From Bacteroidales bacterium (lineage in GTDB: Bacteria; Bacteroidota; Bacteroidia; Bacteroidales; F082), in assembly GCA_016282015.1 (NCBI GenBank), contig JAEEJS010000053.1, positions 1 through 64,000 of the forward strand: a DNA stretch of 64,000 bases, written 5' to 3'. Of this stretch, positions 25,414 through 28,253 are shown in pieces. Position numbers and translations under genes: made by a program. How positions within the stretch are numbered: the first letter of the stretch is position 1; every line of letters starts with the position of its first letter. Under the pieces are notes generated by a model. It searched no databases. It had not been told where the DNA came from and worked only from the letters and a program-made list of their open reading frames with translations.

Positions 25414-25455
25414 TAAATCTTTGATTTAATACGCCATTAAAATGGCGATGTTAAT

Positions 25456-25693
25456 GTTCCTTTTTTCTTGATAAAAAAGGAACCGAAAAAATCAAGGCCC
25501 GAATTATCGGCCTCCGCTACAGTCGTCCTAAGACAGTGATACTCAAGGCAGGGTAACACTTCCTTCGGAAGCAAACAACAAGCGCCCTGCTGTGAGTATC
25601 ATCTGCTTAGTCCGCCTCTTGGGCCTACTCTGCCCCGCATTCGCGCCAGGCCCACCCACCGCGAAGCGACCTGGGGGCGAAGCCATGACGTCA
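25456..25693 (+). repeat. Left copy of 237-bp palindromic inverted repeat
   Basis: It begins with a GTTCCTTTTTT/AAAAAAGGAAC hairpin (25456-25483) and holds a 63-nt nested hairpin at 25538-25600: outer stem GATACTCA/TGAGTATC, inner stem GGCAGGG/CCCTGCT, apical stem CTTCC/GGAAG. A near-identical copy lies inverted at 27896-28131. Where the copies differ inside stems, both partners change together. No reading frame of note; candidate MITE-like or extragenic palindromic element. Confidence 0.85.
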
Positions 25694-25755
25694 TCTCAAC
25701 AGTATCCCATATATTACCGATACATAAAGCCAAAGACAAAACATTGAAACTGCTA

Positions 25756-26064
25756 CTAAAATGGACAATCTGTATCCGAGTTACTTTTATGCCACGAAGA
25801 ATGATGTGTATATCTTAAATTAAAATACTCCAGACTTTGTTTTAAATCATCAAGATCTTTTTGCGCTTCTGTATCTCCTTGGTTTGCTGCTTTTTTGAAC
25901 CATTTAATGGCCTGCTTAAAATCTTTTTCCACACCTTCACCATCCCAATAGCATAGTGCCAAATTATATTGGGTAAAATCATGTCCTTGTTCGGCTAAAG
26001 CCGTCAATTCGTCTATGGTCATTTTTGCATTCGGTTTTTCCTGTTCTTGATTATCTTTTTTCAT
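25756..26064 (-). CDS. Small Sel1-like repeat protein
   Basis: 102 residues. About two Sel1/TPR-like helical pairs are visible: LTALAEQGHDFTQYNLALCYWDGEG and DFKQAIKWFKKAANQGDTEAQKDL overlap the usual SLR consensus. There is no signal peptide; the C-terminus is short, His/Ser-rich and unrelated to the repeats. Such repeats mediate protein binding. Third gene of the accessory operon, 21 bp after the deiminase-like gene. More AT-rich than its neighbours outside the repeats. Confidence 0.7.
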   Translation of the reverse strand: MKKDNQEQEKPNAKMTIDELTALAEQGHDFTQYNLALCYWDGEGVEKDFKQAIKWFKKAANQGDTEAQKDLDDLKQSLEYFNLRYTHHSSWHKSNSDTDCPF

Positions 26065-26085
26065 AGTGATAGTGTTTTGCGAATA

Positions 26086-27081
26086 TTAAATCAATCCTGA
26101 TGTCATTGCTTGAACCATTGCTTCCGGTTCCCATTCGTCTTTCCAGTAATCTGCAGCTTCTTCTATTCTTGTTAGGCATGGACCTTCGTAACTGAAATCA
26201 AAACCCTTAAGATAATTAACGGCTTTCTTTTTATATCCTTCAAACGTTGATATGTTCCAAGATATGCAATTTAGGGCTCCTCCTCTACGGACCGCTTCTA
26301 AAGCAGGGATGCCAACTATGTCACAATTGGGGAAAGCTTTGCTGATTTGCTCCAGTGCTTGCTTGTCTTCTTCAAGTCCTAATTGTGGCACAAGCAGCAT
26401 ATTCCCTATTTGAAGGAAGTTGATGTAAGCCCAACTGCGGGCGTGAAACCGTTTGACATTGTATTTCAGAGGTATGACTTCAAATTTCTTTTCCAAAATT
26501 TTCAGATAACGATAGTAATAGTACCTTGAAAAATCTTTGTAGTTTGTAATTAAAACTCTATTGTTGCCGGCATAATGAATGATTCCGTCGCTATGCCCAC
26601 ACATGTCGCCGTCCCAAGGAATGAACAGAATATCACACTGAAAAGCATCTTTTAGCATACGCTCAACCTCCGCCGGAGTCTTGTTTTTATTTTCAACGAA
26701 GACTTTATCGGTCATCACAACAACATCGTCGCATTTAACCACGTTGCCACCATCAAGAACAAGATCAATTGTGCTGCTTTGTGGAAGCAGTTTTTTCAGA
26801 TTGTTTTCTTCAACTTGAAACACATCATCAGGATTGGTTTGAATGCGGAGACCAGCTTTGTCTTGAAGATAATCCGGGGTATATTTGAAGAAAACAAAAC
26901 GCTCAGCGTTAACCTGAATCGGCATATAATCGCGGCACCAGATGTCTTTTGTTCCAGACAGGTATCCATACGGAATGCCACGTTTCTGCAACGCATCAAT
27001 TAGATGTACATTGAGAATTGGGCATTTCTCGGGCAAAAGGCTGGAGAAATAGACGGTGTTGGTGAGGCTGTCAGTGAGCAT
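26086..27081 (-). CDS. Agmatine deiminase / peptidylarginine deiminase-like protein
   Basis: 331 residues of the guanidine-modifying (GME) pentein superfamily, PAD_porph branch. Active-site segments are present: DIWCRDYMP near residue 46, LDGGNVVKCDD near 109, His163 in GHSDG, and the nucleophile Cys272 in GGALNCISW. There is no signal peptide, so a cytosolic agmatine-deiminase-like enzyme is likelier than an exported protein deiminase; substrate not fixed. It is 2 bp after the preceding gene, in the middle of the three-gene accessory operon. Confidence 0.8.
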   Translation of the reverse strand: MLTDSLTNTVYFSSLLPEKCPILNVHLIDALQKRGIPYGYLSGTKDIWCRDYMPIQVNAERFVFFKYTPDYLQDKAGLRIQTNPDDVFQVEENNLKKLLPQSSTIDLVLDGGNVVKCDDVVVMTDKVFVENKNKTPAEVERMLKDAFQCDILFIPWDGDMCGHSDGIIHYAGNNRVLITNYKDFSRYYYYRYLKILEKKFEVIPLKYNVKRFHARSWAYINFLQIGNMLLVPQLGLEEDKQALEQISKAFPNCDIVGIPALEAVRRGGALNCISWNISTFEGYKKKAVNYLKGFDFSYEGPCLTRIEEAADYWKDEWEPEAMVQAMTSGLI

Positions 27082-27083
27082 AA

Positions 27084-27731
27084 TTATTTTTTTATTGATG
27101 ATGGTATATAACCTAATTTATCTTTTGCATATTCCATGGCTAGATCTTGTGGCATATTATTTTGCGTAATAAAATCAACAACCATCTTTTCTTTCAAAGG
27201 ATACCTGCTGCTTTTAAAGTTATCATCACATAATACCGCTCTTAAATCATAATCAATAAAACCTTTAGTTAGGTTTATTCTTTTTGAAAACAAAACATCA
27301 CAATCATACTTATTTGGAACCAATTTAATAGGCATGCTTTCTAATCCTTTTTCGTCTAGATGACAGACTTCTTTTATTTTCCTAAAAACCTTGTTTGGTC
27401 CAACAACCGGCGGCTCACCATTAATAATTGCGCTTCTTATCAAAAAAGAATAATAAGTATCTGCATCATCACTAACAACGAAATCTAGACTGACACGATT
27501 ACCACCTTTATATGAATCTGATTGTTTGGTTCCCCATCTGTGGATATAAAAGTGGTTTTTATGTTTATTAGTTTGTAATTCATTTTGATGTACCGATTCA
27601 TCTTCAAACACACCTTTTTGGTAATAGTATGGTTCAATCTCAGTAGGTTGAATTAATACTTCGTTGCACACTAATGTTTTAGTAAGAAAACACCTTCCGT
27701 CATCTTGAATTTTTACTATGATATTTTCCAT
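27084..27731 (-). CDS. Hypothetical protein, possibly 3-methyladenine DNA glycosylase-like
   Basis: 215 residues from ATG 27731; an in-frame ATG at 27749 would leave only about 8 nt of leader after the expected transcription start. I do not recognise it with certainty. The order of segments TEIEPYYY, DESVH, YYSFLIRSAII, VGPNKVF and SKRINLT parallels the alkyladenine DNA glycosylase fold (ETEAY with the catalytic Glu, LIRA, GP-K, RIG), but similarity is remote. Very AT-rich, unlike flanking hut genes, which suggests transfer. It is the promoter-proximal gene of the accessory operon. Confidence 0.5.
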   Translation of the reverse strand: MENIIVKIQDDGRCFLTKTLVCNEVLIQPTEIEPYYYQKGVFEDESVHQNELQTNKHKNHFYIHRWGTKQSDSYKGGNRVSLDFVVSDDADTYYSFLIRSAIINGEPPVVGPNKVFRKIKEVCHLDEKGLESMPIKLVPNKYDCDVLFSKRINLTKGFIDYDLRAVLCDDNFKSSRYPLKEKMVVDFITQNNMPQDLAMEYAKDKLGYIPSSIKK

Positions 27732-27763
27732 GGTAATAATATTGAACATTTAACTTTCATTGG

Positions 27764-27771
27764 CAAAGATA
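27764..27771 (-). promoter_or_regulatory. Promoter -7 element of accessory operon
   Basis: Minus strand TATCTTTG, 32 bp before the chosen start at 27731. Confidence 0.6.
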
Positions 27772-27895
27772 AAAGGAAAAATCTGAGCCACCAAATATCT
27801 TTTGTGAAAAATTGTTAAAATTTTCGAAAAAGTTATTTAATAATTTTTATAGTTATTTTATTGATTATTAAATAATTATAAAAAATTTTATAAAG

Positions 27896-28131
27896 ACATC
27901 AGGACTTCGCTCCCACTTCGTTCTTCAGTGCGTCGGCCTGGCCCGAATGCGGGGCAGCGAAGGATAAATAGGCGGACTAAGCAGATGATACTCACGGCGG
28001 GGCGCTTGCGTTTGCTTTCGTCAGAAAGCACTACCCCGCCCTGAGTATCACTGTCTTAGGACGACTGCAGCGGGGGCCGATGATTCGGGCCTTGATTTTT
28101 TCGGTTCCTTTTTTATCAAGAAAAAAGGAAC
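27896..28131 (-). repeat. Right copy of 237-bp palindromic inverted repeat
   Basis: Inverted relative to the left copy. The nested hairpin is at 27987-28049 with stems GATACTCA/TGAGTATC, GGCGGGG/CCCCGCC and GCTTTC/GAAAGC when read on the minus strand; the terminal GTTCC hairpin is at 28104-28131. Homology fades toward its inner end. Confidence 0.85.
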
Positions 28132-28160
28132 ATAATCCCCCAGCCCTATTCAGGGCATAT

Positions 28161-28187: not shown

Positions 28188-28253
28188 ATATTAAACAGGA
28201 AATTTATTCGCATTTGGCGAATGCTTTCGCTTCGCTCCAGTCGAAATGACTGA

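Follow-up and report, generated by a model that had tools for sequence, protein, structure and literature searches.

We lean towards the view that the palindromic elements found in the window (the whole 64,000-nucleotide stretch of Bacteroidales DNA analysed here) are folded border elements of exchangeable gene cassettes, which an enzyme acting in trans would mobilise. Direct support comes from a covarying fold, the outward-facing pairing of the elements, sites that are found both occupied and empty, cargo that recurs at separate sites, sites whose cargo differs between genomes, and breaks in homology that coincide with the inner ends of the borders at one site. Based on these observations, we propose that each border folds as single-stranded or extruded DNA into an outermost hairpin (P0), a terminal hairpin (P1) with a pseudoknot in its loop, and a long branched hairpin. 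Two such borders, with their terminal hairpins pointing outwards, would bracket a unit of accessory genes and mark its ends for a trans-acting recombinase or transposase; the borders themselves would persist as the cargo between them is replaced.

Architecture of the border elements

The two elements in the window are the arms of an inverted repeat, 239 nt each (25454-25692 and 27895-28133) and 83% complementary. An earlier reading made from the sequence only had placed inverted copies at 25456-25693 and 27896-28131; the inverted copies stand, but their limits were slightly off, as P0 hairpins lie outside them and the inner ends are probably near 25684 and 27902, judging from the cargo breaks at the fic site described below. 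A border element measures about 230-260 nt. From the outside to the inside it consists of P0, P1, a short linker, the motif ATCAAG, which pairs with the P1 loop CTTGAT, and the long branched hairpin (Table 1). The P0 hairpin is present in 19 of 26 copies of the window's subfamily (shuffled sequences: mean 1.2, maximum 5) and in 9 of 49 copies of other subfamilies (mean 2.9, maximum 8).

Within the elements, the nested hairpin reported previously, GATACTCA...TGAGTATC, is indeed 63 nt long in both copies. The inner stem (GGCAGGG/CCCTGCT in one copy, GGCGGGG/CCCCGCC in the other) contains the two-sided change from A-T to G-C that had been described and an additional one-sided change from G.T to G-C, and in the apical stem (CTTCC/GGAAG versus CTTTC/GAAAG) both partners have changed from C-G to T-A, again as described. 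The pseudoknot between the P1 loop (25467-25472) and 25491-25496 was absent from that account. A short repeat, GTCATTTCGAC(C/T)GGAGCGAAG, follows hutI at 28220-28250 of the window and was also seen at L182 and L186.

Table 1 Features of the window and cargo of other cassettes (window positions unless a locus is given)
Feature	Position or locus	Strand	Basis
P0, outermost hairpin of left border (GCCATT/AATGGC)	25433-25446	+	sequence and hairpin statistics, 26 copies
P1 terminal hairpin, left border; 11-bp arms, 6-nt loop	25456-25483	+	sequence; helix 1, 93.2% of cells paired
P1 loop CTTGAT, 5' side of pseudoknot	25467-25472	+	helix 2, 96.3% of cells paired, 3 of 6 pairs doubly changed (40 copies)
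ATCAAG, 3' side of pseudoknot	25491-25496	+	covariation analysis
Long branched hairpin (P2-P7) and inner end, left border	25497-25684	+	covariance model match 25455-25676; probable end from the end of GTGGGGGCGAAGCC at the fic site
Sel1-repeat protein, 102 aa	25756-26064	-	ORF; Sel1 E 9.6e-14
PAD_porph (peptidyl-arginine / agmatine deiminase-like) protein, 331 aa	26086-27081	-	ORF; PAD_porph E 1.6e-23
Unnamed conserved protein, 221 aa	27084-27749	-	ORF; 178 homologues
Right border, inverted: branched hairpin and inner end	27902-28103	-	covariance model match 27911-28132, minus strand
P1 terminal hairpin, right border; loop pairs with 28091-28096	28104-28131	-	sequence and covariation
P0, outermost hairpin of right border (GCCCT/AGGGC)	28143-28156	-	sequence and hairpin statistics
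Type II-C Cas9 beside cas1, cas2 and repeat array	L027
SspB/C/D and Pbe	L140
Type IIG restriction-modification	L142
Type I restriction-modification	L158, L145
EcoRI-type methylase and GmrSD-HNH nuclease	L147
Methylase	L155
Methylase and Vsr	L157
Methylase and PDC-M33A/B/C	L165
Tenth defence cassette	L150		homology to L147
UvrD/GajB-like helicase, about 940 aa, single-gene cassette at three different sites	L148:1911-4724, L141:2314-5130, L159:1882-4755		L148 scanned; L141 and L159 by homology, 68% and 32%

Conservation of the fold

Covariation was evaluated in a MAFFT alignment of 40 distinct copies (A2) against a structure of 60 pairs that we named ourselves, with 500 shuffles for comparison. 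Standard pairs filled 91.7% of cells, versus 83.0% in the shuffles and 37.2-52.5% when the partners were slid, the latter being a comparison in which the named structure has an advantage because it was partly derived from the tested sequences. Double-sided changes were found in 33 of the 60 pairs against a shuffle mean of 19.2, none of the 500 shuffles reached either of these values, and the covariation score was 0.258 versus 0.100. Further pair types did not rise above the shuffles in the same alignment (57 versus 55.5). The two copies in the window are by themselves little proof of selection on the fold, and the 40 distinct copies are better evidence; the covariance model and covariation test proposed with the sequence-only reading thus bear out its claim that the folded form is selected, since stem changes remain paired in the wider alignment. 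Neither a known transposon nor a known transposase was found tied to the copies, a tie that would have counted against that reading.

Whether the fold acts as DNA or as RNA was assessed from the ratio of G-U pairs to A-C mismatches, as G-U pairs are expected to far outnumber A-C mismatches in a functional RNA. The named structure has 41 G-U pairs (14 of them at one doubtful pair) and 22 A-C mismatches in 2,342 cells, the 82 distinct copies aligned to the covariance model have 56 and 31 under a procedure that favours G-U, and alifold on the forward strand gave 30 and 33. For RNase P sampled in 30 genomes of the genus, the same alifold procedure gave 303 and 36. Because the elements, unlike RNase P, show little excess of G-U over A-C, the fold more likely acts as DNA, either single-stranded or extruded. 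Of the two levels named in the earlier reading, RNA or single-stranded DNA, the latter is thus favoured and a structured RNA appears less likely, with one strand test opposing: alifold on the reverse-complement strand yielded a somewhat better fold energy and 141 G-U pairs against 36 A-C mismatches. By inspection, the extra pairs unique to this strand, which hold most of the G-U excess, are largely invariant or mismatched and hardly covary; we therefore give this excess less weight.

We consider it improbable that the elements are structured RNAs that flank accessory operons on both sides as leaders, insulators or antiterminators. Such RNAs would account for the strong covariation, including that of the pseudoknot, and for the better energy and G-U excess of the reverse-complement strand, but they fit poorly with the low G-U to A-C ratio of the model-aligned copies relative to RNase P, with the weak covariation of the extra reverse-strand pairs, and with the arrangement of the copies, one of which is always antisense to the other within each pair. 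No Rfam family matched the window at the gathering score (cmscan), and a search with a single copy at E values up to 10 returned chance-level matches only.

Distribution of copies

Further full copies are present in the window's genome on contigs C57, C51 and C6 (two each), along with one truncated copy on C68. DNA searches recovered related copies in 30 of 100 relatives, and a second subfamily used as query recovered copies in 49 of 99 genomes of the genus. The covariance model, built from the 40 copies, matched 63 of these 99 genomes, and in an order-wide search it gave weaker matches in 56 of 295 Bacteroidales genomes (four of the 56 from the genus itself), covering 48 of 183 genera. Scores outside the genus are low, yet the P1 hairpin and the CTTGA/TCAAG signature were detected by script in most of the 26 loci examined. 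Most of the copies sampled in other families stand alone or in tandem. Short MITE-like, tandem and solo forms also exist, as do two-ended forms of 190-500 bp. Among viral sequences the sequence pattern gave a single stretch, by chance, phage records yielded none, and plasmid records matched over no more than 42-46 nt of the P1 region, in three entries for Persicobacter. Two of 19 pattern stretches (L037, L046) were rejected as chance matches.

Several variant arrangements were observed. Head-to-tail units headed by P1, of about 104 nt and about 510-530 nt, occur in other Bacteroidales families (L293, about 1395-1603; L282, about 347-1388). In some borders the place of P1 is taken by another repeat that forms a hairpin of its own (...CCRAGCTTGCTYGAG...; L143:2265-2469, L033:5758-5960, L153 near 1335, L155 near 4899), and in the window's genome a RhuM-like reading frame is interrupted by an inserted border element (L029:393-779).

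Pairing and orientation

Orientation was counted for the 150 covariance model matches listed, with neighbours defined as lying within 20 kb. Among these matches there are 37 neighbour pairs, comprising 23 head-out, no head-in and 14 same-direction pairs; in the genus, the terminal hairpins of oppositely oriented neighbours among the matches listed therefore point outwards in 23 of 23 cases and bracket cargo. Adjacent head-out pairs take in 46 of the 150 matches listed, the remainder being tandem, single or near contig ends, and the 23 pairs are not all independent, as the same site is represented in several genomes (lysS four, cutC two, fic two). The earlier description of the copies as a MITE or an ERIC-like palindrome was therefore too narrow, as copies in the genus are often paired borders around exchangeable cargo. 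That MITE-like elements inserted independently and collected by chance on both sides of useful genes seems very improbable to us: solo, tandem and 190-500 bp two-ended forms do exist, and the ends within one cassette are not especially similar, but independent insertion should also produce head-in pairs, of which there are none against 23 head-out pairs among the matches listed, and both borders stay orthologous while the cargo differs.

Exchange of cargo between conserved borders

Cargo has been exchanged between the borders at the fic and gldD sites. At fic, the flanks and both borders of two genomes (G114 and G011) are 94-96% identical, and the cargo between them, 12 and 10 kb respectively, is unrelated. 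On either side, homology stops where the shared GTGGGGGCGAAGCC ends, 7-16 nt beyond the end of the covariance model, which corresponds to the inner border ends; the left border of G114 has lost its P1 and P0 parts. The gldD site contains a UvrD-like gene in G034 and a CN_hydrolase gene in G020, with the right break at the inner border end and the left break inside the border, which is truncated in G020. At the cutC site, G034 and G054 share flanks and a left border at 95% identity, their cargo is related but diverged (methylases 45% identical), and homology continues for about 50 nt past the left border. Different whole-gene cassettes between two conserved genes, as in minimal mobile elements, are thus clear at fic and gldD, and cutC shows the same arrangement with related, diverged cargo.

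Empty sites were also identified. The gldD site is filled in G034 and empty in G054, and the two genomes encode identical GldD proteins; the cutC site is empty in several genomes. In 8 of 30 loci ftcD directly follows hutI, and P1 remnants without cargo are found at gldD in two genomes (G050 and G109).

The main rival to borders that delimit a moving unit follows the pattern of minimal mobile elements, with homologous recombination acting at conserved borders. The borders would then be merely dispersed homology, the cargo would be swapped by ordinary recombination between the repeats or the flanking genes, and the fold would have another or an older role. We regard this as possible but doubtful. 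Same-site exchange with conserved flanks agrees with it, as do the gldD left break inside the border, the cutC break past the border, the ends of a cassette being no more alike than others of the same genome, and the lack of a shared recombinase. However, both fic breaks and the right gldD break fall at the inner border end and not randomly inside it, related cargo at unrelated sites demands non-homologous insertion at least sometimes, and the covarying fold is left unexplained. Against our preferred reading of the borders as cassette ends, inner-end breaks are limited to the two sides of fic and the right of gldD, with the left side of gldD and cutC breaking elsewhere.

Search for a mobilising enzyme

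The cassettes have no recombinase, transposase or cargo gene in common, and no transposase was recognised in the cargo clusters by a family scan that covered part of the cargo proteins. Since no shared recombinase was found, the way in which the cargo moves is something we infer. The two ends of one cassette are on average 77.1% alike (18 cassettes), compared with means of 61.3-84.0% for different cassettes of one genome (8 genomes); as ends are no more alike within a cassette than between cassettes, they do not have the look of fresh co-transposition. Visual inspection of the sequences flanking 27 pairs revealed no target-site duplication, and the spacer lengths at cutC allow a duplication of about 2 nt at most.

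Candidate enzymes of known families were rejected or yielded no match. A REP/RAYT or IS200/IS605 system was discounted, as the Y1 transposase (PF01797) is encoded in 70 of 99 genomes, yet is missing from six genomes with model matches (G000, which is the window's genome, G053, G032, G059, G050 and G136), the first four of which are rich in copies. An integron was rejected because none of the 99 genomes encodes an integron integrase over the curated cut-off of TIGR02249; weaker matches to this model in 92 genomes were read as general tyrosine recombinases. The Y2 transposase of IS91-like elements was found in none of the 99 genomes, the control genomes being likewise without a match. P1 was also considered as a dif-like crossover site (11-6-11 bp) and rejected, since compensatory changes have altered its arms and left its loop constant, which is opposite to the pattern expected of recombinase crossover sites.

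Relation to known systems

Integron attC sites are folded recombination sites conserved in structure. The elements described here resemble them in being folded and structurally conserved and in forming tandem units with one small gene each (L138, L140), but differ in the absence of an integrase over the cut-off in the 99 genomes and in their main form, an inverted pair around cargo. Restriction-modification units with inverted repeats were reportedly treated by Furuta et al. 2010, whom a review cites for them. Units of this kind that appear to be mobile by themselves, with imperfect inverted repeats, no linked mobile element, and short or long target duplications, are described in the relevant part of that review (PMC3874152). 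Our cassettes are similar in that defence genes seemingly move alone with inverted repeats at their ends; unlike the units in that part of the review, they show no target duplication by eye, their 230-260 nt repeats form covarying folds, and their cargo includes CRISPR-Cas9 and Ssp (PMC3874152). In the minimal mobile elements of Neisseria, as the portion of the source that defines them has it, one pair of conserved genes encloses whole-gene cassettes that differ from strain to strain (PMC3082526). This variety is shared by our cassettes, whereas a structured border is not part of the definition in that portion of the source, and related cargo is here found at different sites as well (PMC3082526). 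REP elements differ in size, being 20-40 bp in the part of the source concerned with them (PMC3733652) compared with 230-260 nt here, and several genomes rich in our copies lack the Y1 transposase.

In the literature searched, whose coverage leaves out most subscription journals, no recognisable description of these border elements was found. Defence units that appear to move without a transposase have already been described, as the review states in the part concerned (PMC3874152); for the structured, order-wide border and its range of cargo, the literature searched contained no description. We tentatively raise the possibility of a new class of mobile cassette in Bacteroidota, with folded-DNA borders whose structure is conserved throughout the order and multi-gene defence modules, including CRISPR-Cas9, that are exchanged at fixed sites by an enzyme not yet known. 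This bears on the wider question of how complete defence systems travel from one bacterium to another when no transposase or integrase is evident. If the borders delimit the moving unit, they would allow such units to be located by sequence with no prior knowledge of their genes, and the search for the enzyme would become concrete, namely for a protein that recognises the P1 hairpin and the pseudoknot. In addition, a fold in DNA that compensatory changes preserve throughout an order would show clearly that folded DNA can be under selection in mobile elements.

Cargo of the cassettes

We mapped 27 pairs, of which 25 are long enough to contain genes. Named defence families were detected in 10 of these 25 two-ended cassettes, nine by direct PADLOC scan and one by homology (Table 1), and in the control one of 10 genes just outside the borders matched (a RhuM-like candidate family). 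Twelve of the 25 (the window, L028, L144, L146, L149, L151, L152, L153, L154, L160, L161 and L163) gave no defence family in a scan that covered part of their proteins, the five with the PAD_porph cargo of the window being judged by homology, L144 by four proteins and L160 by none.

The window cassette lies between hutI and ftcD and encodes three genes on the minus strand (Table 1). Its PAD_porph protein has no match in PADLOC, and the 221-aa protein has none in Pfam, PADLOC or PDB sequences. PAD_porph cargo is present at three sites, namely hutI/ftcD in the window, lysS in four genomes (L146, L149, L151, L153) and a third site in G020 (L154), and the proteins at the other sites are 66-70% identical to that of the window. 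From the company it keeps, we consider the module of Sel1, PAD_porph and 221-aa proteins a candidate for an uncharacterised defence or conflict module. Should the proposed role of the borders be correct, they would point to uncharacterised defence modules, of which the PAD_porph gene and its 221-aa partner in the window are an example.

At L138, L140, L143, L163 and L165, elements arranged in tandem or as pairs carry single small genes (PBECR1, PBECR3, or LPD3 below the Pfam cut-off) and resemble cassette arrays.
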